A stretch of 64,000 bases of DNA from an uncultured Eubacteriales bacterium (lineage in GTDB: Bacteria; Bacillota; Clostridia; Christensenellales; Aristaeellaceae), in the NCBI GenBank assembly GCA_900315675.1, contig OMZY01000001.1, positions 186,001 to 250,000 of the forward strand, in the 5' to 3' direction. The stretch's first letter is position 1. The number at the start of each line of letters is the position of its first letter. Position numbers and translations under genes: made by a program. This document shows, in pieces, positions 4,010 to 50,035 of the stretch. The notes under the pieces were generated by a model. The model had not been told where the DNA came from. It did not search any database and worked only from the letters and a program-made list of their open reading frames with translations.

Positions 4010-4041
4010 AAACAGGCGCCTCGACAATGGCCCTGCAGGGG

Positions 4042-4076
4042 GAGGAGACTGCTGAAAGCGGTCTCCTCTTTCCCTT
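4042..4076 (+). terminator. Intrinsic terminator of the SH3 surface-protein gene
   Basis: An 11-pair stem (4042-4052 with 4058-4068, one G-T pair) closes a TGAAA loop and is followed by a T-rich run (tttcccttttc). It lies about 30 bases after the stop codon. Confidence 0.8.
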
Positions 4077-4135
4077 TTCAGACTGCCATGGTATAATCGT
4101 GGCAACTGCTGCAGAAAGGAAGGGAGCATATTCTC

Positions 4136-4243
4136 ATGACGAATAAAAGGCAGAGCGCCAGAACCAGAATGGCAAGAATCGTCGCACTGGCAACAGCGGG
4201 CGTACTGATTTTTTCCATTGTGATGACATATATCCTGAAATAA
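4136..4243 (+). CDS. 35-residue single-pass membrane microprotein
   Basis: ATG at 4136 is preceded by a purine-rich AAGGAAGGGAG site and the frame closes at TAA 4241-4243. The 35 residues have a basic N-terminus (MTNKRQSARTRMAR) followed by one hydrophobic helix ending YILK. A TATAAT box lies at 4092-4097, but its -35 is weak. The gene stands between the terminator of the SH3 gene and the CapA-like gene 36 bases downstream, so it is probably the first gene of that operon. Function is unknown. The basic-then-hydrophobic pattern, the ribosome site and the promoter-like box argue that it is real, but its shortness keeps confidence moderate. Confidence 0.5.
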   Translation: MTNKRQSARTRMARIVALATAGVLIFSIVMTYILK

Positions 4244-4279
4244 AAAGAAAAAAACGCTGCGCAGAAAGGAGGACAGGAG

Positions 4280-5593: not shown

Positions 5594-6078
5594 GAACGGT
5601 GAACGCGCTGAGAAAGGAACTGCAGATCCTGATGCAGACGAAGCGGACAAGCAGGCCCCCGGTGCTTCGCAGAAGCCTGGTGGAGGAATGGCTGTATGCG
5701 ACGGATCTGCCCGGCGTATGCAGCAGGGAAGAAATCAGTCTGTTCCAGGATCAACTCACGGAAAACGGATGGGAATATACAGCGGACGGGCAATGGATCC
5801 TGATGAGGAAAACGGCTGAAGAACCGCCGGATGAATGGTATAACGGTTCGTTCAGCACTGAAGCGGGTTGCTGCCTGAGCCTGCTTGAACGGCATCCGGA
5901 CCGGACAACAGACGCGCCGGAAGCGGCTCAGCGGATGCTGATCAAAGCCGGTGAAGAAGGCGAAAAACGTTATGAAGCCGCCTGTGCAGCGCTTCACCGG
6001 AACTGGGCTGAACGCCTCAGAAAAGGAGAACCGCTGCCGGCCCTGAATTTCTGTTATTTTTCGGAACGAAAGGAATGA
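5590..6078 (+). CDS. Unknown soluble 162-residue protein
   Basis: I do not recognise this family. The protein is charged and has no signal peptide or membrane segment, so it is probably cytoplasmic. Notable residues are a short aromatic stretch (DEWYNGSF) and a helical C-terminal half. Its start overlaps the stop of the CapA-like gene by four bases and the next gene begins seven bases after its stop, so all three are read as one operon. Composition resembles the neighbours, which supports a real gene. Confidence 0.7.
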   Translation: MRTVNALRKELQILMQTKRTSRPPVLRRSLVEEWLYATDLPGVCSREEISLFQDQLTENGWEYTADGQWILMRKTAEEPPDEWYNGSFSTEAGCCLSLLERHPDRTTDAPEAAQRMLIKAGEEGEKRYEAACAALHRNWAERLRKGEPLPALNFCYFSERKE

Positions 6079-6084
6079 GAACTG

Positions 6085-6735
6085 ATGCTGATTCGGCACA
6101 TCGGACACGCGGAATTCCTGATTGTTACGGAAAGCGGCGTACGGATCGTAACGGATCCCTATGACGCCTCCTGCGGTTATCCACTGCAGAAAACGGACGC
6201 GGATATTGCACTGATTTCCCATCATCATCATGATCATGACGCGGTGGAAAACCTGAAAGGGGAACCGAGGATCATCGATAAGGCCGGACAATATACACCG
6301 GAACCGGATGTGAGGGTTACGGCTGTGAAAGGATTCCATGATGATGAACAGGGGAGCAAGCGGGGAGAAACCCTGCTGTTCCTGATTGAGACAGAAGGAC
6401 TGCGGATTGTTCATCTGGGTGATCTTGGCTGCGCACTGGATGACAATCAGCTGGAACAGCTGAAAAAACCGGACATTCTGATGATCCCGATCGGCGGTTT
6501 TTATACCATCGGCGCCGAACAGGCAAAACAGACAGCAGAGCAGCTGGGAGCCGGAATCATACTGCCGATGCATTACAGGACAGAGTATAATCAGGACTGG
6601 CCGATCAGCGGGCCGGAGGCTTTCCTTGAACAGTTTGCTACCAATGAAATCTGCCAGGGAGCGGAAGCGGTCCGGGTGACAAAAGCAGATATGATGTGTC
6701 AGCCCAGAATTATTATGTTCAGCACCGGACGATGA
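6085..6735 (+). CDS. Metallo-beta-lactamase-fold hydrolase (UlaG-like)
   Basis: 216 residues of a compact MBL fold: an N-terminal strand with GHAEFLI, DPYD, then the metal motif SHHHHDHDAVENL (HxHxDH), a further metal histidine in VKGFHDDEQG, HLGDLG and a C-terminal PMHYRTEYN histidine. This pattern fits the beta-lactamase_2/UlaG-like group of small zinc-dependent hydrolases, whose substrates are diverse; I cannot name the substrate. The protein is cytoplasmic. It is the last gene of the CapA-like operon and is followed by a bidirectional terminator. Confidence 0.85.
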   Translation: MLIRHIGHAEFLIVTESGVRIVTDPYDASCGYPLQKTDADIALISHHHHDHDAVENLKGEPRIIDKAGQYTPEPDVRVTAVKGFHDDEQGSKRGETLLFLIETEGLRIVHLGDLGCALDDNQLEQLKKPDILMIPIGGFYTIGAEQAKQTAEQLGAGIILPMHYRTEYNQDWPISGPEAFLEQFATNEICQGAEAVRVTKADMMCQPRIIMFSTGR

Positions 6736-6770
6736 ACACACTGTAAACGATCCATCCCGAAATAACAGAA

Positions 6771-6808
6771 ACGGACGCAACTGATCAGAATTGCGTCCGT
6801 TTCTTTAT
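6771..6808. terminator. Bidirectional intrinsic terminator between convergent genes
   Basis: A perfect 10-base inverted repeat, ACGGACGCAA (6771-6780) with TTGCGTCCGT (6791-6800), is flanked by TTTCTTTAT on the plus strand. On the minus strand TTTCTGTTATTT follows the stem. It ends the MBL operon and the transglutaminase operon; the minus-strand stop codon (6785-6787) sits in its loop. Confidence 0.85.
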
Positions 6809-9049
6809 GAAGATGCGGCGAATATAGTAGCGGAGACGGGCGGGACGTGACAGGTCACCCTTCAGCAGGACGGCCGTATCCCGAAGTATACCGGTTTCCG
6901 CCGCTCCGGCTTCGGCACGGGAATAACGGATCCATGAAATGCATTCCCCCACCGGATTGAGGGAAACATTAAAGTGTGAAGCGCGGTCGATTCTCCGGCC
7001 GTATGCCATTGGCGTTTCGCCGGTACGCCGGGAATAATTCTCTGCGTACAGGAGTTCTGCAATCTCCTCTGCCCAGATGTCAAAACGCCGGGCTTCCGTA
7101 ACGGCACGACGCTCGCGGACAACAGGATCGGTCAGGCGGATCCTGAGCACAAGCGCCGCCAGAAGAAGCAGGAGCAGCAGAAGCAGCCAGGGGAAAGAAC
7201 CGGAAGACGATTCCGGAATATCTGGCGGTTCAGACGAATCATCCGGTTCCGGAGTGGGAGAATCGGGAGTGTCAGCTGAATGGTCCGGAATGTCGGGTTC
7301 AGGCGTAGGCTCATTCTCACCAGGTACGGAATCCGGAGGCTCAGGGGTGGGGGAAGGAGCAGAATCAGGCGGAGAAGATCCGTCCGAATGATCCTGTCCG
7401 CTGTTTCCGCTGTGCCGGGGTGTGGCATCAAAAGTAAGCCAGCCGAATCCTTTAAAATAGACTTCGGTCCAGGCATGGGCGGAAAGCCCGGTTACAAGCG
7501 CCTGTCCATTTGCGTCCGGTTCGGCCACATATCCTTCCACATAACGGGCAGGCAGGCCGACCATACGGCACAGAACGGTCATGGCTGAAGCAAAATAGGT
7601 ACAGTAACCTTCTTTGGTATCCAGCAGGAAGGATGTGACGAAGTCCATATCGGGAGACTGCGGCTGCACATCAAGCGTATAACGGAAGCTGCGGCTCAGC
7701 CAGGAACGGAGAGCCAAGGCTTTCTCATAAGGCGAAACTGCGGCAGAAGAGGCATCATTGGCAAGGGAATACACAGGTCCTTCAAGATGGGACGGCAGAG
7801 TTGTATAAGTCTGAACAATTTTATCATATGCACTGTCATCCATCGTAGAGCAGACTTCAATCAGGGTTCCGAGTCCGGAATCACCGGCAAGGAAGAGAGG
7901 CGCTGTGACAGTATATGTATCGCCTGCCTGCAGGTTTCGGGTAACAAACAGTTCGGATGAATTGTTAAAATAGGGGACGAGATCTCCACCGGGAATCAGG
8001 GTTCGAACCCGCTGCGGCACAAAGAGAGTGGATGAAAACTGGCTTGAAGAAAAGTCTTCACTTTCTCCCAGCATCTGTACGGATACGGTCACAGGATCAC
8101 ACAGGGCATTACGGATGTTGAGCGGCGGGAGATTTTCATCAAACAAAGCGGCACGCAGATCGGCAAGCCGGGAGGACTGACGGAGATAACGGCGTCTGTC
8201 CGTCGTGTTGATCCATCCGCGGCCGGTATATTCGTTCAGGATTACACCCCGAAGGTAAACTGTACGGGGAGTTGAAACCATCATAACCGGATGGTTGGTC
8301 GGATTCGGCTTGCCGCCCAGCTGATCCTGTCCTTCAGGATAATAGTTTTCTGATGAAAGGGAAAAGATATCTCTGGGTTCAGTGAAAAACAGACGGTCAA
8401 GAACAGCCTGACGTAATTCGTCCGCTTTCCGGCGGAGAGGGTTTTGACCGACGCCTCCGCCAGCCAGCAGGAAGGCTGCGAAAACAAGTAAAACCGCAAG
8501 AGGAATAAGCTGCGGAACAGAGGTTTCCGGGAACCGTTCTGTCATCAGAATCAGAAGCAGGGAAACCAGCGCAGGAAGAAACCAGGGAATCATGCTGTGC
8601 GTTCCTGTGAGATAAATCAGCAGAATCATGCTGAAACAAAGAACTGCTGGCGGAAGGAAAGACGCGCCGCGCTGGCAGATCAGACAGGAGACCAGAGTGA
8701 TGAGAACGGTCAGAATCGCCGTGACAGAAGAGCCAACAAGCGGTATAGCGGTACGGATATTGTTACAGCGAAGAACAACGGCCATTACAGCGTCGGAAAC
8801 AATCATCATTCCGCCCATGGCGAAAAGCCACAGCAACAGCAGAACAAGCGTTGTACCGGCGGCCGCAAAAATGACAGCCCTTTTGAGGGAAGACAGTTCA
8901 AACAGCACAATGATCAGCACAATCCAGGGAATGATGACCGGAGAAGGCAGAGAAGAATCCAGGATGCCGAGCAGGGGAATCAGAAGGCCGACGGCCATCA
9001 GAAGGGATAACAGGGCGTGAACCAGGCGGGAACGCAGGGATTCACTCAC
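6785..9049 (-). CDS. Membrane transglutaminase-like protein (TgpA/DUF3488 type)
   Basis: I take the GTG at 9049 as start because AAAGGAGG lies nine bases before it; the longer frame from a TTG at 9070 would contain the ribosome site. 754 residues: about six or seven N-terminal membrane helices, an extracytoplasmic transglutaminase core with the triad Cys483 (EGYCTYFAS), His525 (SAHAWTEV) and Asp541 (FDATP), a Pro/Ser/Asp-rich linker, a Leu-rich membrane helix and a DUF4129-like C-terminal tail. The family sits in operons with MoxR and DUF58, exactly as here, and probably crosslinks or cleaves envelope proteins or peptides. The last point is inference. Confidence 0.88.
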   Translation of the reverse strand: MSESLRSRLVHALLSLLMAVGLLIPLLGILDSSLPSPVIIPWIVLIIVLFELSSLKRAVIFAAAGTTLVLLLLWLFAMGGMMIVSDAVMAVVLRCNNIRTAIPLVGSSVTAILTVLITLVSCLICQRGASFLPPAVLCFSMILLIYLTGTHSMIPWFLPALVSLLLILMTERFPETSVPQLIPLAVLLVFAAFLLAGGGVGQNPLRRKADELRQAVLDRLFFTEPRDIFSLSSENYYPEGQDQLGGKPNPTNHPVMMVSTPRTVYLRGVILNEYTGRGWINTTDRRRYLRQSSRLADLRAALFDENLPPLNIRNALCDPVTVSVQMLGESEDFSSSQFSSTLFVPQRVRTLIPGGDLVPYFNNSSELFVTRNLQAGDTYTVTAPLFLAGDSGLGTLIEVCSTMDDSAYDKIVQTYTTLPSHLEGPVYSLANDASSAAVSPYEKALALRSWLSRSFRYTLDVQPQSPDMDFVTSFLLDTKEGYCTYFASAMTVLCRMVGLPARYVEGYVAEPDANGQALVTGLSAHAWTEVYFKGFGWLTFDATPRHSGNSGQDHSDGSSPPDSAPSPTPEPPDSVPGENEPTPEPDIPDHSADTPDSPTPEPDDSSEPPDIPESSSGSFPWLLLLLLLLLAALVLRIRLTDPVVRERRAVTEARRFDIWAEEIAELLYAENYSRRTGETPMAYGRRIDRASHFNVSLNPVGECISWIRYSRAEAGAAETGILRDTAVLLKGDLSRPARLRYYIRRIFIKKRTQF

Positions 9050-9147
9050 GGCGGAAGGCCTCCTTTCCAATCAGACAGAGATGATCATACTGACTGATTT
9101 ACTAGATCAGACGGAAATGCGTGGAATAAAAGGAAAAAACGGCCATC

Positions 9148-10299
9148 TTATGCGTCAGGCGTTACGTAGGAGACTTCCAGTCCTGCCTCACGCAGACGGG
9201 CAATCAACGGGAGGACATTTTCATCTTCGGGCGCAAAGGTTACCAGATAGAGACGGATATTCGGCCCGGCACGGTGCATACGGATCATGATATCCACCAT
9301 GGGAATGTTCAGACGAGCGGAAATAATGACAACACAACCGACCTTCCGCAGGCGGCAGCTTTCCATGGACAGGACGCGCTCAAAGCGATCCGTCTCAGAG
9401 AAGTCCACACGGGCCAGATAATCCATGGCGATGGGAAGACCCATGCTCTTATCCACATCCACAGGATGCTTTCCGGGAAGAGGCATGCGCAGCTGATGAT
9501 CCGTAACAGTCTGAGAGGTCAGGACAGAAGCAGCAGTCTCCAGCATGGCATCCCGGATGTCTGCTCCGGCCCTTGCATGGCCCCAGGAGGGAGGCGGAGA
9601 GCAGTCCATGAGAATGAGTACGTCCTGAAGAATCGGCTCATCAAACTTACGGACGATCAGTTCCCGTTTGCGCAGGGAGAGTTTCCAGTGAATCTTCTTC
9701 ATTGCATCCCCGGGCTGATAGCTTCGGATATCGGAAGGAGCATTCAGATCCTCCGTTGCCCGGGACATCAGTTCGCTGCCGGGGTCGCCGGGAGCAAGCT
9801 TCAGCGGTTCCACATCAAAAGTCTGGGGCAGAACCACCAGTTCAAACGAAGTTTTTTGCAACGGAATACGCCGCTGAACGAGGCACAGCAGGTCTTCCAC
9901 GGTACAGGAACGAAGGCCGACGGAGAAAACACCCACATGAGAGGCGTGTATAGGCAGTCTCATGCTCTGCAGGCGATGAGGCATATTTTTCAGCCGGACT
10001 TCCCGGTCACGGTTTCCGACGGGATCAGACAACTCCAGAAGCAGCGGCGCAACGGGCAAAAAACCGCGATGCCGGACCCGAAGACTGAGAACAACATCGT
10101 CGCCGCGCCGGACGGTTTCCCCTGAAAGCATTCCATCCACCTCCAGCGTGGAGGACGCCCAAAGAACGGAAATCAGGGCACCGGCCAGAATCAGCAGAAT
10201 CAGAATGGAAAGCAGCAAAAAAAGCTGACTGCCGGTGCAGAGGGCAACCGTCAGCAGCGTCAGAAATACGGCAATGGGCAGAGTCAGTTTCAGTTTCAT
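9148..10299 (-). CDS. DUF58 domain protein
   Basis: 383 residues with two N-terminal membrane helices, a beta-rich middle and the DUF58 signature SDIRSYQPGDAMKKIHWKLS, then a von Willebrand A-like region (VLILMDCSPP). DUF58 proteins act with MoxR ATPases in assembling or activating membrane or envelope complexes. The start codon overlaps the stop of the moxR gene by four bases. A 98-base gap leads to the transglutaminase gene; no terminator is seen there. Confidence 0.9.
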   Translation of the reverse strand: MKLKLTLPIAVFLTLLTVALCTGSQLFLLLSILILLILAGALISVLWASSTLEVDGMLSGETVRRGDDVVLSLRVRHRGFLPVAPLLLELSDPVGNRDREVRLKNMPHRLQSMRLPIHASHVGVFSVGLRSCTVEDLLCLVQRRIPLQKTSFELVVLPQTFDVEPLKLAPGDPGSELMSRATEDLNAPSDIRSYQPGDAMKKIHWKLSLRKRELIVRKFDEPILQDVLILMDCSPPPSWGHARAGADIRDAMLETAASVLTSQTVTDHQLRMPLPGKHPVDVDKSMGLPIAMDYLARVDFSETDRFERVLSMESCRLRKVGCVVIISARLNIPMVDIMIRMHRAGPNIRLYLVTFAPEDENVLPLIARLREAGLEVSYVTPDA

Positions 10300-39820: not shown

Positions 39821-40470
39821 TTATTTATCAGAATCCAGGAAACGGTAGATAATTGCTGCAAGCGCGCCGCCCACCAGGGGAGCCAGCAGGAATACCCAGA
39901 TTCCGCCGAGGTTTCCGGCAATCAGCGCCGGTCCAAAGGAACGGGCGGGGTTCACGGAAGTGCCGGTGAAGGAGATACCGAGAAGGTGAACCAGAACCAG
40001 TGCACCGCCGATCACCAGGCCGGCAATGTTTCCGTTGGACTCCTTTGAGGTAACACCGAGAATCGCAATTACAAAGACACAGGTGAGGATCACTTCAATG
40101 AGGAAACTGAGCCAGGCATTGCCGTTGTAAAGAGCATTGCAGCCAAGTTTTCCGGCGTCCTGAACGATTGCATTGAGGATCGCGGCACCGGCAATGGCGC
40201 CGAGGAACTGAGCTACAATATAGCCGCAGAAATCCTTAACAGAGATTTTTTGCTGATCAGCATGGCAACGGATACTGCCGGGTTGATATGACAGCCGGAG
40301 ATATTGCCGATGGAATAAGCCATGGCGACGATGACAAGACCAAAGGCAAGGGCAGTACCAATCAGCCCGGAGACTCCCGTGGCGCATATCTGCCCCGCAA
40401 CACCGCAGGCGACCAGCACAAGGACGCAGGTGCCGATGAACTCTGCCAGATACTTCCGCAATTCTTTCAT
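39821..40470 (-). pseudogene. Aquaporin/MIP-family channel gene with one-base frameshift
   Basis: The first part (ATG 40470; MKELRKYLAEFIGTCVLVLV) contains the first NPA box (CHINPAVSV, residues 60-68) but runs to an early stop at 40213. The remainder, in the -1 frame, contains FCGYIVAQFLGAIAG and the second NPA box (TSVNPARSFGPAL) through the last helix. The frames meet at six A residues on the minus strand (40246-40251); a seventh A would give one uninterrupted channel of about 216 residues. Both halves are otherwise well conserved, so the break is recent, a read error, or bypassed by slippage. AGGAGG and a good promoter precede it. The gene would encode a water or small-solute channel. Confidence 0.85.
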
Positions 40471-40515
40471 GTTCTTCTCCTCCTTTTATTCCTATCTGTT
40501 GTGGAATCAACCGGT

Positions 40516-40704: not shown

Positions 40705-41169
40705 ATGGCGCTCTTGTTTTTTTTGTTCTGGATGGTACTGAACGGGAAGGTTACGTGGGAGACTGCCGCCTTTGGCGCGGCGGTCTGCGCCTTGGCCATG
40801 ACGTTCGCCTGCAGGGCGTGCGGCTGGTCCCTGGACCGTGAGAAACGGCTGTACGCGGCGGCTCCCCGGATCATCGGATACCTGGGCGTCCTGCTGTGGG
40901 AGATCCTGAAGGCCAACCTGAAAACCTTCCGGACGGTATGGGGCAGGGGACCGGATCCGGTCGTCCGGACCATACGCACCGGGCTTGTGACCCGGATGGG
41001 GAAGATGGCGCTGGCCAATTCCATCACCCTGACGCCGGGCACCATTACGCTGAACTGCCGCGGGAACGAGCTGACGGTTCACTGCCTGACGGCGGAGATG
41101 GCGGAAGGCCTGGACGAAAACATATTTGAAGCGAAACTGAAAAGAATCGAGGCGGTGTTGCATGGATGA
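40705..41169 (+). CDS. mnhE: Na+/H+ antiporter subunit E (MnhE/MrpE/MbhA-like)
   Basis: Start at ATG 40705 after GGGGAGAGAAAG; the same frame extends far upstream but that part is unrelated to the family. 154 residues: two N-terminal membrane helices, then the conserved soluble part with ILKANLKTFRTVW, VVRTIRTGL and ANSITLTPGTITLN. MrpE is a small structural subunit of multi-subunit cation/proton antiporters. It is the first gene of ten. Its end overlaps the next gene by eight bases. Confidence 0.9.
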   Translation: MALLFFLFWMVLNGKVTWETAAFGAAVCALAMTFACRACGWSLDREKRLYAAAPRIIGYLGVLLWEILKANLKTFRTVWGRGPDPVVRTIRTGLVTRMGKMALANSITLTPGTITLNCRGNELTVHCLTAEMAEGLDENIFEAKLKRIEAVLHG

Positions 41170-41467
41170 AACCTACGCGCTGCTCATGCAGGGAGCGGTG
41201 ATCCTGCTGGGGCTGTGCCTTGCAGTATGCCTCTTCCGCGCTTTCCGCGGCCCGAAAACGGCAGACCGGGTGGTAGCCGTGAATATGGCGGGTACGGTAA
41301 CGGTTCTGATCATCCTGTTCCTGGCTTTGCTGACGCGGGAAGGCTTTTTGCTGGACGTGGCCATGATCTACGCCCTGCTGAGTTTCTTGGCGGTGATGCT
41401 TCTGTGCCGGATCCTGATCGGCGTTCACCGCGAGCGGTACGGAAAGGGGGCCGGGCGGGATGGCTGA
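41162..41467 (+). CDS. mnhF: Na+/H+ antiporter subunit F (MnhF/MrpF/MbhB-like)
   Basis: 101 residues with three membrane helices; the signature FRGPKTADRVVAVNMAGT and LLDVAMIYALLSFLAV fit MrpF closely. It starts inside the end of mnhE and overlaps mnhG by eight bases, so expression is translationally coupled. It is a membrane structural subunit of the ion-translocating module. Confidence 0.93.
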   Translation: MDETYALLMQGAVILLGLCLAVCLFRAFRGPKTADRVVAVNMAGTVTVLIILFLALLTREGFLLDVAMIYALLSFLAVMLLCRILIGVHRERYGKGAGRDG

Positions 41468-41786
41468 GACCCTGCGGCTGGCCCTGTTCGCCATGCTGAT
41501 GGCGGGCGGGCTGATATTTGAAATTTCGGCGGTTTTCGGGGCCAACCGGTTCCGCTTTTCCCTGAACCGGATGCATCCGGCGGGCATGGGGGATACGCTG
41601 GGACTGCTGCTGATGGCCCTGGCGATGATCGTGTACACCGGGTTTGACTGGATCGCCCTGAAGATCCTGGCGGCCGTTGCGGTCTACTGGATCACGAGCC
41701 CGGTGTGTACACACCTGGTCGGCAAGCTTGTGCGCGAAACGGAAGAAGAGCAGCTGAAAACGGAGGCAAAGGAATGGAAATCCTGA
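41460..41786 (+). CDS. mnhG: Na+/H+ antiporter subunit G (MnhG/MrpG/MbhC-like)
   Basis: 108 residues, three membrane helices, with the MrpG motif FSLNRMHPAGMGDTLGLLLM (family: MHAxGxxDT). The charged C-terminal tail is probably cytoplasmic. It overlaps both neighbours by 8 and 13 bases. Confidence 0.93.
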   Translation: MAETLRLALFAMLMAGGLIFEISAVFGANRFRFSLNRMHPAGMGDTLGLLLMALAMIVYTGFDWIALKILAAVAVYWITSPVCTHLVGKLVRETEEEQLKTEAKEWKS

Positions 41787-42052
41787 ACGTGATCCTGCTG
41801 GCGGTGATCGTGGCCTGCGCGGTGGCGGTCAGCCTGACCCGCGGCCTGCTGAGCGCGGTGATCGTTTTCATGATCCAGGGGCTTGCCATGTCCGTGGTGT
41901 GGGTCCTGCTGCAGGCGCCGGACCTGGCGATTACGGAGGCGGCGGTAGGCACCGGGATTTCCACGGTGCTGATGCTGGCGGCCCTGAAGAAGATCCAGTC
42001 TGTCCAAAGAAAGGAGGAAAGGCGGGATGCCGGCAAACAAAAAGAAGCATGA
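41774..42052 (+). CDS. MbhD-like subunit (DUF4040; C-terminal MrpA piece)
   Basis: Start at ATG 41774 (MEILNVILL) after AAAGGA. 92 residues, three membrane helices, with the signature LLQAPDLAITEAAVGTGIST. This segment is fused to MrpA in true Mrp operons but is a separate gene in membrane-bound hydrogenases (MbhD). The separate form argues for Mbh-type ancestry. It overlaps the next gene by 26 bases. Confidence 0.88.
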   Translation: MEILNVILLAVIVACAVAVSLTRGLLSAVIVFMIQGLAMSVVWVLLQAPDLAITEAAVGTGISTVLMLAALKKIQSVQRKEERRDAGKQKEA

Positions 42053-43022
42053 TGCCTTTGCCCGCCTGGCTGACTGGCTGGAGAACGGAGCCCAGCCCCT
42101 GGACGAGGAAATCGGGGAGAGCCTGGCGGACGAGGCATACGAGGAAGAAAACGCCGCGGAGAAAACCATTCCTTCTGTTGAAGTGAAAAAGCAGACGCCG
42201 AAAAAGAAAAAAAGGCAGGAACGACACAGAAGAAAGCGCAGGGACGCCCTGACAGTCGGCGCGTACGCCGACGCGTGGTGGTACCGCGTAACCGCATTCA
42301 TCGTGTGCGTCAGCCTGGTGGGGCTTTTGCTGTACGGCGTGGTCAGGATGCCCCTGTTCGGCAACGCGGACACGCTGGCGGACAGCGAGGTCGCATCCTT
42401 TTACGTCACCCATACCCTGGAGGAAACCGGCGCGGTGAACATCGTGACGGGCATCATCCTGGACTACCGCGGATTTGACACGCTGGGGGAATCCCACGTG
42501 CTGTTTGTCGCGGTCAGTTCCGTGCTGCTGCTCCTGAGCATCCGGGGAGAAAAGGACGAACAGGAACGGCTGCTCGAAAGTGACCGGGAACAGCGGACGG
42601 AACCGGACCACGACCTGGTGCTGCAGGGAGGCGCCAGGCTGCTGCTGCCCCTGGTTCTGATTTTCGGAATCTATATCATCCTCAACGGCCACCTGTCCCC
42701 GGGCGGCGGATTCTCCGGCGGTGCGGTGCTCGGGGCCGGACTGATCCTGTACCAGAATGCCTTCGGCTATGACCGGATCGGGAAGTTCTTCACCTACCGG
42801 ACCTTCCGCGCGGTGTCGGTGTCCGCGCTGCTGTTCTACGCGCTGGCAAAGGGATACCATTTCCTGACAGGCGCCAACCACATCCCGGGCGGGATTCCGG
42901 AGGGAACCGCCGGGGCGATCCTCTCGGGCGGGCTGCTGCTTCCGCTGAATATCGCGGTGGGCTGCGTGGTGACCTGCACCATGTACGCGCTCTACACCAT
43001 GTTCAGAAGGGGGGCTTTCTGA
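42027..43022 (+). CDS. MbhE-MnhB fusion subunit with basic N-terminal extension
   Basis: 331 residues. Residues 1-85 are a soluble extension: an acidic helix, then a very basic run (KKKKRQERHRRKRR, about 60-73). Residues about 86-170 are MbhE-like, with NIVTGIILDYRGFDTLGES (the block found at the MrpA C-terminus). Residues about 196-331 are MnhB (LNGHLSPGGGFSGGAV). Two subunits that are separate genes (MbhE, MbhF) in archaeal hydrogenase operons are thus joined. The basic region is not part of either family and may contact nucleic acid, phospholipid or a partner; this is inference. Confidence 0.88.
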   Translation: MPANKKKHDAFARLADWLENGAQPLDEEIGESLADEAYEEENAAEKTIPSVEVKKQTPKKKKRQERHRRKRRDALTVGAYADAWWYRVTAFIVCVSLVGLLLYGVVRMPLFGNADTLADSEVASFYVTHTLEETGAVNIVTGIILDYRGFDTLGESHVLFVAVSSVLLLLSIRGEKDEQERLLESDREQRTEPDHDLVLQGGARLLLPLVLIFGIYIILNGHLSPGGGFSGGAVLGAGLILYQNAFGYDRIGKFFTYRTFRAVSVSALLFYALAKGYHFLTGANHIPGGIPEGTAGAILSGGLLLPLNIAVGCVVTCTMYALYTMFRRGAF

Positions 43023-43411
43023 TGCTGCGCCATGTCACTGAACTCGTGAACCAGCATCTGGACGAAGTGGCGGCCCTGATCCTTTTCGGCGTCGGTTTCA
43101 CGATGCTTCTGCTGGACAAAAACCTGATCAAGAAGATTATCGGCTTTTCGATGATGGATTCCGGAATCTACCTGTTCCTGGCTTCCTACGGTTATATCGG
43201 CGGGCTGCGAAGCGCCCCGGTTTATACGAACGGCGTCACGGATCCGGCTGCCTACGTCAATCCGCTGCCGGCCGGACTGGTGCTGACAGGCATCGTGGTG
43301 AGCGTCAGCGTGACGGCCGTGATGCTGGGACTGACAGTACGGCTGTATCAGCGGTATCATACACTGGATATGGACGAGATCGCGGAACAGATCCGGAAGG
43401 AGGGGAAATGA
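43022..43411 (+). CDS. mnhC: Na+/H+ antiporter subunit C (MnhC/NuoK-like)
   Basis: 129 residues, three membrane helices: FGVGFTMLLLDKNLIKKIIGFSMMD and DPLPAGLVLTGIVV-like NPLPAGLVLTGIVVSVSVTA, matching MrpC/NuoK. The start codon overlaps the stop of the fusion gene by one base. It ends in a charged cytoplasmic tail. Confidence 0.93.
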   Translation: MLRHVTELVNQHLDEVAALILFGVGFTMLLLDKNLIKKIIGFSMMDSGIYLFLASYGYIGGLRSAPVYTNGVTDPAAYVNPLPAGLVLTGIVVSVSVTAVMLGLTVRLYQRYHTLDMDEIAEQIRKEGK

Positions 43412-44907
43412 TCTTGGCCTGGTGGCAGAATCTCCCCCTCTTCCTGGTGCTGTGCCCGCTGATGTGCGGGGTGGCGTGCTCCGCACTGCGCGGAAAGGCG
43501 TCGCGGTGCGTGACGGCGGCCATGTGCGCAGCCGAGTCCGCCGGCATGGCGGTGCTGCTCTGGTATACGGCTTCCGGAAACGTCAGCTTTACCTACGCGA
43601 TGGGGAAAATCGGCGCGCCGTTCGGCAACGAACTGCGGGCGGGACCCGCGGAGGCGCTGATGGGACTGGGATTCACCCTGGTGCTGACGCTGTCCGTGAC
43701 CGGCGGAAACCGCAGCCTGACCGAGGACGTGGAGTCGAAGCGGATGAACCTTTTCGGGGCCATGATCGGCCTGCTGACCGCGGCGACGGCCGCCATCGTA
43801 TTCACCAACGACCTTTTCACGGCTTACGTTTTCATTGAGATCACAACCCTTTCAGCCTGCGCGCTGATCGGCGTGACCAACCGGGGAAGGGCGCTGTTTT
43901 CCTCCGCCCGTTACATGGTGATGAACCTGCTGGGCAGCGGCCTGTTCCTGCTGGGTCTGTCTATGCTCTACGCGCTGACGGGGCAGCTGCTTTTTCCCCA
44001 GCTGGCGTCGGCAGTGGACGCCCTGATCGCGGAAAACAGATACAGCGTGTCGATGTACCTGTCCTTCCTTCTGATGGGCCTGGGGCTGTGCATCAAGAGC
44101 GCACTGTATCCCTTCCATACCTGGCTGCCGGACGCTTACAGCAACGCCACGGCGGTTTCCGGGGCGCTGCTGAGCTCGCTGGTATCCAAGCTGTATATTT
44201 TCCTGCTGATCAAGATCGCCCTGCGGGCGGCGGGGGAAGAGGCGTTTATCCACAGGATCGGAGACGTGCTTTTCCTTTATGCCGCGGTCGGTACGGTGCT
44301 GGGTTCAGTCCACGCGCTCTACCAGCGGAAGCTGTCCCGGGTGATCGCGTATTCCTCGGTCGCACAGATCGCCTGCGTCTACCTGGGGATCGCCCTGGGA
44401 AGCGGGGAAGGGATCGCCGCCGCGCTGTTCTATATCCTGGCCCACTCGGCGGCCAAGTCCATGCTGTTCGTGACGTCCCATAAGCTGCGGCGGGCCTGCG
44501 GCGGGGCGGACGGGCTGGAAGACCTGCGCGGCGCGGCCAGGAGAAGCCCGCTGGCCGGGCTGGCGTTCCTGGCGGGGGCGTGCTCCCTGGTCGGGATTCC
44601 AGGCCTGGGCGGGTTCGCGGCGAAAATGTACCTGGCGCAGGCGGCTATCGGCGGGGGCGGCTGGAGAATGCCGGCGCTGCTGGGCCTGCTGGCAGTGAGC
44701 ACGACGCTGAACGCCGCCTATATGCTGAGGACTGCGCTGATCCTGTACAGCCGGGACAAGCCGGCCGGAGAGGCTGGAAAGCCGAAGGCGCGGGATGCCG
44801 CGTTCGCAGCTGCGACGGCGGTGATGATCGGCCTGAACCTCTTCCTGGGCTTTTGCGGGCGGCCGGTGATCGAACTGATTCACAGGGGACTGGCCCTGTT
44901 TTCCTGA
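43408..44907 (+). CDS. mnhD: Antiporter-like subunit 1 (MnhD/NuoN-M type)
   Basis: 499 residues, about 14 helices, Proton_antipo_M family. Proton-path residues are kept: Glu144 (VFIEITTLSA), Lys230 (LCIKSALYPFHTWLPDAY), Lys261 (SLVSKLYIF), and Lys406 (GGFAAKMYLA). It follows mnhC in the order seen in both Mrp and Mbh operons and is therefore the likeliest true MrpD/MbhH counterpart. The ATG overlaps mnhC (GGAAATGA). Confidence 0.92.
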   Translation: MILAWWQNLPLFLVLCPLMCGVACSALRGKASRCVTAAMCAAESAGMAVLLWYTASGNVSFTYAMGKIGAPFGNELRAGPAEALMGLGFTLVLTLSVTGGNRSLTEDVESKRMNLFGAMIGLLTAATAAIVFTNDLFTAYVFIEITTLSACALIGVTNRGRALFSSARYMVMNLLGSGLFLLGLSMLYALTGQLLFPQLASAVDALIAENRYSVSMYLSFLLMGLGLCIKSALYPFHTWLPDAYSNATAVSGALLSSLVSKLYIFLLIKIALRAAGEEAFIHRIGDVLFLYAAVGTVLGSVHALYQRKLSRVIAYSSVAQIACVYLGIALGSGEGIAAALFYILAHSAAKSMLFVTSHKLRRACGGADGLEDLRGAARRSPLAGLAFLAGACSLVGIPGLGGFAAKMYLAQAAIGGGGWRMPALLGLLAVSTTLNAAYMLRTALILYSRDKPAGEAGKPKARDAAFAAATAVMIGLNLFLGFCGRPVIELIHRGLALFS

Positions 44908-44928
44908 ATGAAGACGGAGGTGGACTGG

Positions 44929-46383
44929 ATGAATATTCTGCTGATCCTGCCTGTACTGCTCCCGGTGGCGCTGGGACTGATATGGTACGGACTGAAGCTG
45001 ACGGGAAAGCGGCTGAACCTGGCGACGTTCCTGACCGTGCTTTGCAGCGCCGGACTGGCCGCAGCCTGCGCCTTGGTACCCGACGCAGGGGAAATCACGC
45101 TGCGCTGGACGGATATGCTGACTTTTTCTATGCGGGTGGACGGCATCAGCCGCGTTTTCCTTCTCCTGGTGGCTGTAGTGTGGCCGTGTGTGGCGCTGTA
45201 CGCCACGGAATACCTGGAACACGACGCGAAGCCGGGACGCTTCTTCCTTTTCTACACGATTACCCAGGGCATTCTGCACGCACTGGCGATGAGCGGGAAC
45301 CTGGTGACCTTCTACATGTTCTATGAGGCTATGACCCTGCTGACTGTGCCGCTTGTGCTGCACAATATGGACCGGGAAGCGGTGGCGGCGGCAATCAAGT
45401 ACCTGATCTACTCCGTGATCGGCGCGTCTGCGGCGCTGATCGGGATTTTCTTTGTGGGTTCAGTGGGCGGCAGCGGGGATTTTTCCGCCGGGCCGCTGAC
45501 GGCGGAACAGATCGCCGGCAGGGAAGGACTGGCTATGGGCGTGTTCATGGTGATGCTGGTGGGCTTCGGCGTAAAGGCCGGCATGTTTCCCCTGCACGGC
45601 TGGCTGCCTACGGCCCATCCGGTCGCGCCGGCACCGGCCAGCGCTGTGCTGTCCGGCGTGATCACTAAAATGGGCGTGCTCGGCGCGGCGCGGGTCGTGT
45701 TCTCCGTCGCAGGTACACAGCGGCTGCGCGGCAGCTGGGTGCAGATGGCGCTGCTGGCCCTGACGCTGATGACGATCCTGATGGGGTCGCTGCTGGCGTT
45801 CAAGGAAAAGAAACTCAAAAAGCGGCTGGCCTATTCCTCCGTATCTCAGGTTTCCTACGTGCTGTTCGGCCTCTACACGATGACGCCGCTCGGGTTTACC
45901 GGGGCGATGCTTCACGTGATCTTCCACTCCCTGATGAAAAACACGCTGTTCATGGGTGCCGGCAGCATTATCCATAAAACCGGAAAAACCATGGTGCCTG
46001 AACTGGACGGACTGGGGCGGAGGATGCCATGGACCTATGCCTTCTTTACCGTAGCCTCCCTCGGCCTTGTAGGCATTCCGCCTACCGGCGGGTTTGTCAG
46101 CAAATGGAACCTGGCGCAGGGCGCGCTGGCGCTGGACAACGCCGTGCGCTGGATCGGCCCGACGGCGCTTCTGATTTCCGCGATCCTGACGGCAGCCTAC
46201 CTGTTCACTATCGTGATCCGCGGATGCTTCCCCGGAGAAGACTGGGTGCCGGAACCCTCCTGTGAAGCGGGATGGAGGATGCTGGTGCCGATGGGGATCC
46301 TGGCCGCGCTGATTCTCCTGGCCGGCGTGTTCTCCGGCGGACTGGTGTCGTATCTTGAGACGATTGCGGGACAGCTGATGTGA
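44929..46383 (+). CDS. Antiporter-like subunit 2 (Proton_antipo_M)
   Basis: Start at ATG 44929, eight bases after GGAGG, rather than the ATG at 44908. 484 residues, about 14 helices. Glu133 (FYMFYEAMTLLT), Lys216 (GFGVKAGMFPLHGWLPTAHPV), Lys247 (SGVITKMGV) and the Lys in GGFVSKWNLA make a complete proton path. The GWLPTAHPVAPAPASAVLSG block is typical of complex I subunit 5-like proteins. It is an additional pumping subunit next to MnhD. Confidence 0.92.
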   Translation: MNILLILPVLLPVALGLIWYGLKLTGKRLNLATFLTVLCSAGLAAACALVPDAGEITLRWTDMLTFSMRVDGISRVFLLLVAVVWPCVALYATEYLEHDAKPGRFFLFYTITQGILHALAMSGNLVTFYMFYEAMTLLTVPLVLHNMDREAVAAAIKYLIYSVIGASAALIGIFFVGSVGGSGDFSAGPLTAEQIAGREGLAMGVFMVMLVGFGVKAGMFPLHGWLPTAHPVAPAPASAVLSGVITKMGVLGAARVVFSVAGTQRLRGSWVQMALLALTLMTILMGSLLAFKEKKLKKRLAYSSVSQVSYVLFGLYTMTPLGFTGAMLHVIFHSLMKNTLFMGAGSIIHKTGKTMVPELDGLGRRMPWTYAFFTVASLGLVGIPPTGGFVSKWNLAQGALALDNAVRWIGPTALLISAILTAAYLFTIVIRGCFPGEDWVPEPSCEAGWRMLVPMGILAALILLAGVFSGGLVSYLETIAGQLM

Positions 46384-46393
46384 GGAAACGGAA

Positions 46394-47845
46394 ATGATGG
46401 TGTTTATCTGCGCGTGGGTGCCCGTGGTTCTCGGCTGCGTGCCCCTGGCAGTCCGGTTCCGCAGCATAAAGGCACGGTCCCTCTGGGCGCTGTTTTCCGT
46501 GACTGCCACATCCCTGCTGCTGGGAGCCCTGGCACTGTGGGGAAGCATGGAGGAGACTGCGGAAGTTTTCCGGCTGTCGGAAAGCTTCCGCTTCGTCCTG
46601 CGACTGGACGGAACGGGGAAGGTTTACCTGGGAGTCGCCGCGGTGCTGTGGCCCCTGGCCATGCTCTATGCCGGAGAATACATGGACCATGAAAAACGGG
46701 AGGGGCACTTCTTCACCTGGTATACCGCTGCGTACACGCCGGCGATCCTGCTGGGAACGGCGAACAACCTCTTTACGCTCTACATGGCATATGAATGGCT
46801 GACGCTGTGTACGGTGCCGCTGGTATGGCACGCGCGGGACGCGGCATCCGAACGGGCGGCGGTGCGCTACCTGCTGTTCCTGATCGGCGGAGCTTCCCTG
46901 GGCTTTGTCGCCATGGCCGGGCTGAACGCCTTCGGCGTGGGCGGGTTCGACGGCCCGGCCAGCACGGCCGCCGCGGAAAACGAATGGTTCCGCGCGCTGT
47001 GCATGCTCGGATTCCTTGGATTCGGGGTCAAGGCGGCGGTGCTGCCGCTGTCCCGCTGGCTGCCCACGGCTTCCGTCGCACCGACGCCGGTGACGGCCCT
47101 GCTGCATGCGGTGGCGGTCGTCAATGCAGGTGTTTTTGCGGTTGCGCGGCTGTTGTACAACGCGCTTTCACCGGACATGCTGCGCGGCACCTGGGTACAG
47201 GCGGCCATGATGAGCCTGGCTGCTCTAACCGTGGTTTATGCCGCCGCGGCGGCAGTGAGGGAAAAGCATATCAAACGGCGCATGGCGTGGAGTACGGTGA
47301 GCAACCTGAGCTACATGCTCTTCGGGCTGAGCCTGTTGACGGCCCACGGGCTGGTTGCCGGGCTGGCACACATGGTATTTCACAGCGCCATGAAGATCGT
47401 GCTGTTCCTGTGTGCAGGCGGGATCATCATCTATTCCGGGCGGTACTCGGTCCGGCAGATGCACGGACTGGGCCGGAGAATGCCCCTGCTGTTCGGGTGC
47501 TTTACGCTGGCCGGGGTGTCGCTGCTTGGCGTGCCTCCGCTGCCGGGGTTCGTGAGCAAGTACGAACTGGTGACGGCGGCTTTTGAGGAAGGCAGCCCGC
47601 TGGCACTGGCCGGGGCGGGAGCGCTGCTGCTCGCAGCGGTCCTGACAGCCGTTTATGTCTTTACCATCGTTTACCCCGCCTTCTTTATGGCGGAGGACTC
47701 CCGGCTGCAGGAGCAGGACGTGACGAAGCCCGGGCCGCGCATGACGGCTTCGCTGGCGGTGCTGTGCCTCCTGCTGCTTGTGCTGGGTGCCGCGGCGGGA
47801 ACGGTCGTCAAGCAACTGTACGGACTGACGGGAGGGATAGGATGA
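46394..47845 (+). CDS. Antiporter-like subunit 3, lacks the second channel lysine
   Basis: 483 residues, about 14 helices, NuoL/MrpA-like in the block SRWLPTASVAPTPVTALLHA. Glu134 (YMAYEWLTLC) and Lys213 (GFGVKAAVLP) are present, and Lys in GFVSKYELV, but the helix-8 lysine of MrpA is Asn244 (AVVNAGVFAVARL). NuoL of Escherichia coli also lacks that lysine, so the change need not abolish pumping, but this subunit differs from its three neighbours. The stop overlaps the next start (ATGA). Confidence 0.9.
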   Translation: MMVFICAWVPVVLGCVPLAVRFRSIKARSLWALFSVTATSLLLGALALWGSMEETAEVFRLSESFRFVLRLDGTGKVYLGVAAVLWPLAMLYAGEYMDHEKREGHFFTWYTAAYTPAILLGTANNLFTLYMAYEWLTLCTVPLVWHARDAASERAAVRYLLFLIGGASLGFVAMAGLNAFGVGGFDGPASTAAAENEWFRALCMLGFLGFGVKAAVLPLSRWLPTASVAPTPVTALLHAVAVVNAGVFAVARLLYNALSPDMLRGTWVQAAMMSLAALTVVYAAAAAVREKHIKRRMAWSTVSNLSYMLFGLSLLTAHGLVAGLAHMVFHSAMKIVLFLCAGGIIIYSGRYSVRQMHGLGRRMPLLFGCFTLAGVSLLGVPPLPGFVSKYELVTAAFEEGSPLALAGAGALLLAAVLTAVYVFTIVYPAFFMAEDSRLQEQDVTKPGPRMTASLAVLCLLLLVLGAAAGTVVKQLYGLTGGIG

Positions 47846-50001
47846 TTCCGGTGATCATGCTGCTGATTCCGCTGATCGGGGCGGCGGCCGCGCCTCTGGC
47901 GGGACTCCGGAAACCGGCGGCCCGGGAAGTGCTGCTGCGCCTGTTTACACTGGCTGAGCTGGCACTGGCAGCGGGACTGTTCATCCGCGTCCGGCAGGGG
48001 GCTGATCTGGTAATTGGAGCACCCGGGCTCGTTGGCATGGGGCTCTCATTCCGGGTGGACGGATTCCGGGCGCTGTATGCGATGCTGGCCTGCTTTATGT
48101 GGGCGATGGCCTGCCAGTTCTCCCTCCAGTATTTCGCGGGGCACGGGTCGCATCCGGGGCGGTATGCCTGCTTCACGCTGATTACACAGTGCGGTGTGCT
48201 CGGGGTGTTTTTTTCCGACGATCTCTACACGACCTTCGTGTTTTTTGAAATCATGTCCATCGCTTCCTATCCATGGGTTGCCCATGAAGAAACAAAAGGC
48301 GCGATGCGGGCGGCGGCTACCTACCTGGGCGTATCCGTCGCCTGCGGGATGGTGACGCTGATGGGTATGTTCCTGTGCTGGCGGGAGGTCGGGAGCCTCT
48401 CCTTTGACGCGCTGCGGGCAGCGGGAGACAACCCGGCGGCTGTGCTGCCCGCTTGTCTGATGCTGGTCGGCTATGCAGCGAAGGCGGGCATGGTCCCGCT
48501 GCATATCTGGCTTCCCAAGGCTCACCCCGTGGCACCGGCCCCGGCGAGCGCCCTGCTGTCCGGGATGCTGACGAAAACGGGGATCTTCGGGGTTGTCGTG
48601 ATTGCCCTGAATCTGCTGGGGGAGAACCGGGTATTCGGGAATGTGCTGCTGGGAATCGGGCTGGTAACGATGACGCTGGGAGCGGTGCTGGGCGTGTTTT
48701 CGGTCAACCTGAAGCGTACGCTGGCGTGCTCCTCGCTGTCCCAGATCGGCTACATCACGGTCGGGATTTCCTGCGCGCTGCTGCTGGGGCACCATGGAGG
48801 CCTCGCGGCCGCGGGCGCAGTGGCGCATATGGTGAACCACTCGCTGCTGAAACTATGCCTGTTTTTGTGCGCCGGCGCGGTCTATATGCAGGCGCATACG
48901 CTGGACCTGAACGAACTGCGCGGCTACGGCCGGAGAAAGATGCTGCTGCACATCGTTTTCCTGCTGGGAGCGCTGGGGCTCATGGGCGTACCGGGCCTGA
49001 ACGGCTACACCGGGAAAACCATGATCCATGAAGGGCTCGTGGAACTGGCGGAAGATGCGGGGGGCTTCGGTGCCTACCGCCTGTGCGAATGGGTTTTCCT
49101 GTTCGCGGCCGGGCTGACGACCGCCTATATGCTGAAACTCTACATTTGCCTGTTCTGGCAGAAAAATCCGGACCGGGAGCGGCAGGCCCGCTACGACGGC
49201 ATGAACGGCCGAGACCTGACGGCGCGCTCTGCCGCGGTGCTCGCGTTTTCCGCCGTGCCGCTTGTGGCGCTTGGCGCGCTGCCGAATCGGCTGCTTCTGC
49301 CGCTGACGCGGATCTGCGCAGGATTTTTCAACCGGCCGGAGCTGGGCGGGGAAGTCGCCTTCTTTTCCCGGACGAACCTGCAGGGCGGCGGGATCAGTCT
49401 TCTGATCGGCGCCGCGGTGTACCTGTTGTTCGTGCGGACAGTGCTTTATAACCGGGAAAAAGGCTACATGGACCGCTGGCCGCGCGGGCTGGACCTGGAA
49501 GAGCTTTTCTACCGCCCTGTTTTCACGCGCTTCCTGCCTTGGGCCGGCTGCGGGATCGCCGCCTTCCTGGACCGGATTCCGCAGTCTCGGTTGGTGAGTG
49601 AGTGGATCCCCAAAGGTGTGACCGCTGTGTTTATCGGAATGGACCGCCTGCCGGAATCCAAAGCGGTGACGAAGATCCTTCCCGGCATTTTCGTCGCCTT
49701 CGGCAGGATCTGCGACGAACTGGCGGACCACATCGCCCTGTTCTGGCGGGAACTGTTCCTGGAAAGCCGGGAGGACCTGCAGCGAAGCCGGAACCACAAC
49801 GGCTTTACACGCATGGCCTGGGCGGCAGAGGAGGGATTCCGCCGGGTCGGTCTGCTTCCGGAACGGTATATCCGCCGGCGGGCGCCGGACGACCTCCGGT
49901 ACGGAACGTGGCTGACTAACGCCATTTCCTTCGGCCTGCTGCTGGGGGCGGCCGGGATCGTGGCGGCCATTCTCTACGTTTTTATCCGGATGGGCGTATA
50001 G
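47842..50001 (+). CDS. Antiporter-like subunit 4 with long C-terminal extension
   Basis: Start at ATG 47842 after GGAGGG. 719 residues. The first 480 or so form a Proton_antipo_M domain with Glu136 (FVFFEIMSIASYPW), Lys214 (GYAAKAGMVPLHIWLPKAHPV), Lys245 (GMLTKTGIF) and the Lys in NGYTGKTMIHEG. About 240 more residues follow, with a transmembrane helix near LIGAAVYLLFV, amphipathic charged helices (MDRWPRGLDLEELFYRP) and a final membrane helix (LLLGAAGIVAAILYVFI). The extension resembles the lateral arm of NuoL-type subunits that braces neighbouring subunits. This would be the distal subunit of the complex. Confidence 0.9.
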   Translation: MIPVIMLLIPLIGAAAAPLAGLRKPAAREVLLRLFTLAELALAAGLFIRVRQGADLVIGAPGLVGMGLSFRVDGFRALYAMLACFMWAMACQFSLQYFAGHGSHPGRYACFTLITQCGVLGVFFSDDLYTTFVFFEIMSIASYPWVAHEETKGAMRAAATYLGVSVACGMVTLMGMFLCWREVGSLSFDALRAAGDNPAAVLPACLMLVGYAAKAGMVPLHIWLPKAHPVAPAPASALLSGMLTKTGIFGVVVIALNLLGENRVFGNVLLGIGLVTMTLGAVLGVFSVNLKRTLACSSLSQIGYITVGISCALLLGHHGGLAAAGAVAHMVNHSLLKLCLFLCAGAVYMQAHTLDLNELRGYGRRKMLLHIVFLLGALGLMGVPGLNGYTGKTMIHEGLVELAEDAGGFGAYRLCEWVFLFAAGLTTAYMLKLYICLFWQKNPDRERQARYDGMNGRDLTARSAAVLAFSAVPLVALGALPNRLLLPLTRICAGFFNRPELGGEVAFFSRTNLQGGGISLLIGAAVYLLFVRTVLYNREKGYMDRWPRGLDLEELFYRPVFTRFLPWAGCGIAAFLDRIPQSRLVSEWIPKGVTAVFIGMDRLPESKAVTKILPGIFVAFGRICDELADHIALFWRELFLESREDLQRSRNHNGFTRMAWAAEEGFRRVGLLPERYIRRRAPDDLRYGTWLTNAISFGLLLGAAGIVAAILYVFIRMGV

Positions 50002-50035
50002 CGAAAAGGGAGCGCGGCAAAACGCTCCCTTTTCG
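50002..50035. terminator. Bidirectional terminator of the Mrp/Mbh-like operon and glgP
   Basis: A perfect 13-base inverted repeat, CGAAAAGGGAGCG (50002-50014) with CGCTCCCTTTTCG (50023-50035). It starts one base after the last antiporter stop codon and faces the end of glgP, so it can serve both strands. Confidence 0.85.

Follow-up and report, generated by a model that had tools for sequence, protein, structure and literature searches.

A widespread clostridial operon with four Proton_antipo_M subunits, probably a redox-free antiporter of the group-3 Mrp kind

The window analysed here, a stretch of 64,000 nucleotides from an uncultured Eubacteriales bacterium (assembly GCA_900315675.1, contig OMZY01000001.1, positions 186,001 to 250,000), carries on its plus strand an operon of ten co-directional genes (40705-50001) in the order MrpE-F-G-MbhD-(MbhE+MrpB)-C, followed by four Proton_antipo_M subunits designated D1 to D4. 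Its product is probably one stand-alone, redox-free Na+ (or K+)/H+ antiporter, electrogenic and of the group-3 Mrp type, in which the row of pumps was lengthened from two to four. We infer that the ten proteins form a single complex arranged in gene order. The initial annotation, made from the sequence alone, had offered a stand-alone antiporter as one of two meanings of the operon, and this meaning is supported by the subunit composition, the conserved gene order, the absence of the redox families searched and the retention of proton-path and putative cation-path residues.

All ten products matched Pfam families above the gathering score (MNHE, MrpF_PhaF, PhaG_MnhG_YufB, MbhD, MnhB and MbhE in a single protein, Oxidored_q2 and four times Proton_antipo_M), which bears out the initially annotated ten-gene operon with four Proton_antipo_M subunits. 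None of the listed NCBIfam families (best 25 per pump) reached its curated cut-off with the operon proteins. The genes had been described as overlapping, which holds for most of them, but the spacings along the operon (-8, -8, -13, -26, -1, -4, 0, +10 and -4 bp) include two that are not overlaps. The start codon of D4 is the ATG at 47842. Directly 3' of D4 lies a hairpin of 13 pairs (-23.4 kcal/mol, z score -5.7) which none of 200 shuffles equalled, in agreement with the terminator that had been proposed to close the operon; it is absent from the listing of a terminator consensus scan, though its folding is strong.

Each of D1 to D4 carries the signature of antiporter-like pumps, namely a Glu in transmembrane helix (TM) 5, a Lys in TM7, a Lys or His in TM8 and a Lys in TM12. 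Residues were counted in aligned copies, with helices assigned by alignment; alignments A1-A4 were made without L045, and A5 without L043, L045 and L049 (D4 cut by the contig end) and without 40 of the 68 fetched-locus D4 sequences. E144, K230 and K406 of D1 were present in 82 of 82 copies, with the TM8 residue K261 in 96%. In D2, where TM8 carries a Lys, E140, K223, K254 and K399 were found in 90/90 copies, and E136, K214, K245 and K392 of D4 in 89/89. D3 retained E134, K213, H238 and K389 in all 96 copies; H238 is a TM8 His, a feature described for MrpA and NuoL (PMC7419157; this and all other PMC papers are cited from extracts), and D2 has a Ser in the same column. All four pumps are predicted to move protons.

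The subunits preceding the pumps would form the cation path. Carboxylates of this path are reported to be essential in Mrp, three of them not being conserved in complex I (PMC7419157). E55 of MbhD, D151 and E155 of MbhE and D35 of MrpF fit these carboxylates and were kept in all or nearly all copies, as was D46 of MrpC (counts in Table 1). Judged by domain homology and spacing, E55 would match E706, and D151/E155 would match D792/E796.

The assembly of the window genome (3.6 Mb, 57 contigs) is 95.66% complete. Assembly-wide, no match was obtained for PF01058 (NuoB), PF00146 (NuoH) or PF00346 (NuoD), the search not extending to PF00374 and the FeFe hydrogenase families, and D1 to D4 are its only PF00361 genes. 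For these three families, the lack of an electron-transfer module noted initially thus holds genome-wide, and an identity as MBH or complex I finds no NuoB-, NuoD- or NuoH-type redox half, PF00374 lying outside the search. PF01058 occurred in none of 21 four-pump genomes, several of them incomplete (down to 63%), and PF00146 in none of the 15 checked. In a close set of 61 genomes (37 of the genus and 24 others of the order), comprising the window genome and 60 relatives, PF01058 and above-cut-off PF00146 were restricted to two other-family genomes with three PF00361 genes. No conserved neighbour gene emerged from the 87 of 95 loci with flanking open reading frames of at least 100 aa, the largest flanking cluster comprising 8 loci with no uniform position or orientation. 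As its second meaning, the initial annotation had offered docking to a redox module whose genes lie elsewhere; electron transfer would then drive the row. A gene order as in MBH and the position of MbhH as best solved relative of each pump speak for such docking, but with PF01058, PF00146 and PF00346 absent from the window genome, the first two also from the four-pump genomes checked, and neighbours unconserved it is unsupported, and we regard it as highly improbable. A variant in which Rnf or another unrelated redox system serves as the partner formally stays compatible with these data.

The arrangement is shared with many relatives. Four PF00361 matches were found in 15 genomes of the close set, 14 of the 37 of the genus (window genome included) and 1 of the 24 others; of the remainder, one genus member has two, two other-family genomes have three and 43 have none. 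All 14 four-pump relatives that were read keep the ten-gene order, with D4 of L049 cut by the contig end. As the order persists in relatives whose pumps share 39-55% identity with the four window pumps, the operon is not a chance assemblage. A scan of genome contigs with a D3 pattern yielded at least 592 stretches, at least 586 of them from relatives. The best 80, chosen by their match to the window D3 and for that reason uninformative on other architectures, showed the complete order in 54 loci and a consistent order cut by a contig end in 21; five differed (L062, L095, L134, L136, L138). The carriers among these 80 belong nearly all to the Clostridia group (Lachnospiraceae, Oscillospiraceae, Clostridia, Eubacteriales) and include Hungatella hathewayi WAL-18680 (L107) and Butyricicoccus pullicaecorum ET57 (L125); outlying titles were one metagenome-assembled genome named Muribaculum and one Synergistaceae. 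The order fixed in 54 of the best 80 loci, together with the monophyly of each subunit, suggests fixed positions, which renders it quite unlikely that D1 to D4 are alternative pumps for the same position in two- or three-pump rows, giving different complexes, even though their folds are similar and some MrpA-type subunits were reported to be active alone (PMC5703873).

Two loci deviate in their own way. In L062, D3 lies near a contig end and is followed by about 10 kb without D4, which may reflect loss, rearrangement or misassembly. The genus member with two PF00361 genes (L053, G017:C7:28000-47000; 7079-10272, minus strand) has a D2-like and a D4-like gene only, and neither the TM5 Glu nor the TM7 Lys is left in the D2-like product; the pair looks like an operon remnant with the D2-like protein in decay.

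In a class-wide sample of 246 genomes with a completeness of at least 85, PF00361 was present in 61 and PF01058 in 48. Eighteen loci with at least three adjacent pumps were read with profiles of the ten subunits, G063 and G157 being excluded for a PF01058 gene within 8 kb. They comprised six four-pump loci, eleven three-pump loci (L154-L164) and one complex I-like locus (L165). The order D1-D2-D3-D4 was found in L150, L151, L152 and L153, the latter cut by a contig end. L148 and L149 represent a second four-pump type with separate MbhE and MrpB genes and a different pump in third place, its gene apparently split in L149. In the three-pump loci the pumps follow E-F-G-MbhD-MbhE-MrpB-C, with MbhE and MrpB again as separate genes and the first pump gene apparently split in L154. 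PF01058 was found in none of the 7 class-wide four-pump genomes (window genome included) and in 5 of the 11 three-pump genomes, there on another contig or 3.3 Mb away (G180). In this sample, redox-free operons with three pumps are no less common than those with four. The four-pump operon itself occurs in many Clostridia, and the view that it is atypical, in the sense of rare, had to be abandoned. Among the three-pump operons, L163 and L164 show a further architecture: D4 is the best-scoring profile for the second pump as well as for the third, and none of the pumps has the TM8 His.

The initial annotation had proposed a tree of the four Proton_antipo_M proteins against known families. In such a tree (FastTree, 140 sequences), D1 (17 sequences), D2 (18), D3 (17) and D4 (18) each formed a clade with a support of 1.0. 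The trees cover pumps of at least 400 aa, which leaves out short ones in L153 and L154 and a part of the split L149 pump. D3 was considered as an orthologue of MrpA and rejected as such: the TM8 His is common to both, yet NuoL, MrpA and HyfD group apart from D3 in the bootstrapped tree described next. This second tree with ultrafast bootstrap support (UFBoot; LG+G4, 1000 UFBoot) covered 88 of the 140 sequences, with D1 and D4 represented by three four-pump sequences each. It recovered D2 (12) and D3 (12) as clades with a support of 100 and joined D2 and D3 alone at 97. Both fall inside a clade (100) that also holds the middle pumps of three-pump operons as well as pumps of the His type from the Rubrobacter, Halomontanus and rhizobial operons, and the Ser of D2 sits where these pumps carry His. 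By the phylogeny D2 descends from a middle pump, which points to a gain by duplication, the timing being left undecided by the approximately unbiased (AU) test: a constrained tree that places D3 with the clostridial middle pumps and D2 outside was not rejected (AU p 0.218). The same result would be compatible with an older four-pump row from which D2 was lost in the three-pump lineages. The extra pump of L148 and L149 branches just outside the clade of D2, D3 and middle pumps (joined at 96); as it is distinct from D2, the fourth pump of these loci is, on the evidence of the tree, a separate gain.

The last pump, D4, ends in a C-terminal strap. An AlphaFold2 model built from 41 sequences reached a mean predicted local distance difference test score (pLDDT) of 84.9 and a predicted template modelling score (pTM) of 0.81, with pLDDT values mostly above 85 up to residue 540 and of about 45-70 in the strap. 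The top Foldseek matches of this model were chains of MrpA, MrpD, MbhH and NuoL. In four close relatives the length from the motif LEELFYRP to the motif DExxDH is 49 (L060), 73 (window), 97 (L059) and 121 residues (L104), in steps of exactly 24, corresponding to one to four strap units; the D4 proteins of L060, L059 and L104 are 66%, 75% and 70% identical to that of the window. Tandem Repeats Finder reported 72-bp units in the straps of L104 (2.5 copies, 80% matches) and L059 (2.0 copies, 87%). In a survey of D4 proteins of at least 600 aa, the strap repeat was unmatched by any of 60 shuffles in 27 of 82 proteins, with a lag of 24 in 15 and of 22-24 in 22 of them. A strong repeat of 28 residues with a different charged sequence (z score 26.5) was also seen in the D4-like tail of a three-pump locus (L160, G123:C5).

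In an unusual complex I, a 26-residue insert in the lateral helix accompanies an added pump (PMC9040806), and the length of this helix is said to match the number of pumps (PMC7684303). The length of D4 after K432 had a median of 261 residues in four-pump loci (n=86) vs 237 in three-pump loci (n=10), and after D551 of 138 vs 123 (Mann-Whitney p 0.01, which for related sequences is no clean probability). In the second four-pump type the corresponding lengths were 310 and 331 after K432 vs 261 in the closest three-pump relative L159, and 135 and 134 after D551 vs 130. Counted from the YRP motif onwards, the D4 tail of four-pump loci ranges from 84 to 210 residues. The idea that the strap strictly measures out the number of pumps was unsupported, since the count of 24-residue units varies while that of the pumps stays the same. 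Modelling of the four-unit D4 again gave low confidence in the strap, and whether the strap forms one long helix is left undecided by either AlphaFold2 model.

In the proposed antiporter, E-F-G, MbhD, MbhE-B and C would form the cation path, D1 would adjoin C, and D2, D3 and D4 would extend the row, with the D4 strap running along it. The complex would have one cation path in all and one proton path per D subunit. Several H+ would enter, driven mainly by the membrane potential, and a cation would be expelled at an H+/Na+ ratio above about 2; for canonical Mrp, about 2 H+ per Na+ are thought likely (PMC7419157). More pumps may raise the ratio and allow a steep Na+ gradient to be held at low proton-motive force. 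In the window genome, which has an Rnf operon and an ATP synthase c subunit with a two-carboxylate motif, the antiporter would convert proton-motive into sodium-motive force. The c subunit (L169, G000:C19, 1357-1746, plus strand) has a pair of Glu spaced by 33 residues, with T-T-G-L-Y after it, similar to the two-carboxylate motif Glu32/Glu65 of the Fusobacterium nucleatum c subunit (PMC3692424). It looks like the motif of a Na+-driven enzyme; Na+ use is not proven by it, since the motif is common to further species (PMC3692424). The Rnf operon (L168, G000:C53:73000-90000; 1561-10021, minus strand) encodes a 519 aa fusion of RnfD and FMN_bind together with a protein of 1134 aa in which a cytochrome c552 domain is combined with three FMN_bind stretches; for Christensenellales, an RnfG that is multi-flavinylated and carries a multi-heme domain has been mentioned (PMC8238504).

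Rnf and the two-carboxylate c subunit would equally suit the same complex working mainly in reverse, a Na+ gradient made by Rnf driving H+ out for acid resistance and proton-motive force. This direction was proposed for the stand-alone group-3 Mrp of Pyrococcus furiosus, whose use of Na+ as coupling ion (PMC8415708) is also a precedent for the proposed antiporter. The sequence does not reveal direction; one Na+ could not expel several H+ unless the proton-motive force were small, and we consider the reverse mode rather unlikely.

Several observations weigh against the proposed antiporter. PF03116 (Rnf/Nqr) was found in 11 of 15 four-pump and 34 of 46 other genomes, a compatible pattern but no association, the four four-pump genomes that lack it having a completeness of at most 73%. 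As many as 23 of the 37 genus genomes are without the full four-pump set, so its function is dispensable there. Profile comparison gave MbhH, a subunit of a redox complex, as the best solved relative of each of the four pumps. The P. furiosus Mrp was proposed to work with one pump (PMC8415708), and extra pumps are therefore unneeded for exchange as such. Finally, the residue equivalences stem from homology and spacing, not from structural superposition. More tentatively than the antiporter itself, one may picture a low-gear exchanger in which the proton coupling of four subunits serves one cation site, with adjustable 24-residue strap units and at least two gains of four pumps in Clostridia.

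Table 1. Features of the operon in the window
Feature	Coordinates	Strand	Basis and remarks
MrpE-like subunit, 154 aa	40705..41169	+	Pfam MNHE, 93.8 bits
MrpF-like subunit	41162..41467	+	Pfam; D35 in 73/75 copies
MrpG-like subunit	41460..41786	+	Pfam
MbhD-like subunit	41774..42052	+	Pfam; E55 in 78/78 copies
MbhE+MrpB fusion, 331 aa	42027..43022	+	Pfam; D151 and E155 in 79/79 copies
MrpC/NuoK-like subunit	43022..43411	+	Pfam; D46 in 80/80 copies
D1, pump adjoining C	43408..44907	+	Pfam, residue alignment
D2, additional pump	44908..46383	+	Pfam, residue alignment
D3, pump with TM8 His	46394..47845	+	Pfam, residue alignment
D4, 719 aa pump with TM15, C-terminal strap and final TM helix	47842..50001	+	Pfam, residue alignment, AlphaFold2, Foldseek
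Two diverged 24-residue units in the D4 strap	49564..49707	+	7/24 identical
Terminator hairpin	50002..50035 (approximate)	+	Folding vs shuffles

Divergent to the operon, an aquaporin-like gene was identified by eye on the minus strand (39821-40510); its halves, with one NPA motif each, lie in different frames.

The Mbh A-H gene order recognised initially reflects a genuine similarity. In print, however, operons that lack MrpA, among them stand-alone ones, are called group-3 Mrp; this group is defined by the absence of mrpA and the presence of at least one mrpD-type gene, in some cases of several copies (PMC8415708). The operon conforms to it, with fused MrpA absent, E, F, G, B and C present and the putative cation-path carboxylates conserved, and it does not conform to canonical Mrp (groups 1 and 2) with a fused MrpA and two pumps. 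As a description, group-3 Mrp-type antiporter suits it better than headless Mbh. The MrpA-less kind with several mrpD genes is thus already known (PMC8415708). The initial annotation would have yielded its claim of an unusual operon if many Clostridia had been described with it; many carry it, but no recognisable description of a four-pump, redox-free operon was found in a literature search judged by titles, first lines of abstracts and extracts of the papers cited, with subscription papers mostly uncovered.

The closest known arrangement is the stand-alone Mrp of P. furiosus (mrpEFGBB'CD), which likewise begins with E-F-G, carries domains of the MbhD/MbhE type where the C-terminus of MrpA would be and lacks both MrpA and a redox module (PMC8415708); it has one pump and a fusion of MbhD with MbhE, whereas the window operon has four pumps and a fusion of MbhE with MrpB. 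Operons of Peptoclostridium acidaminophilum, Halomontanus rarus (on plasmids) and Rubrobacter radiotolerans, as annotated, share E-F-G, an MbhD-type protein, three adjacent pumps and the absence of redox genes in the stretch read, but they lack D2; furthermore, MbhE and MnhB are separate in Peptoclostridium and the pump order differs in Rubrobacter. The MBH and MBS complexes of Pyrococcus share the subunit order A-H, and MbhH is the best solved relative of the pumps, but the window is without the I-N half, and MBH has one pump and MBS two (PMC7684303). Canonical Mrp (MrpABCDEFG) has homologues of E, F, G, B, C and the pumps in common with the operon, which differs in the missing fused MrpA and in having four pumps instead of two. 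Lengthened forms of complex I (Nitrospira 2M, rhizobial, Ca. Manganitrophaceae) resemble the operon in their extended pump row; they are redox enzymes, and in the window family straps of different length occur with the same number of pumps.

In the collections searched, the operon is frequent in gut-type Clostridia and therefore bears on their sodium and pH management. Complex I and its relatives pose the still unanswered question of how coupling proceeds along antiporter-like subunits, with one proton per subunit or not. Redox-free systems form a natural series, from the single pump of the stand-alone P. furiosus Mrp through the two of canonical Mrp to three and four in Clostridia, and exchange across this series, free of electron transfer, could reveal the contribution of each pump.

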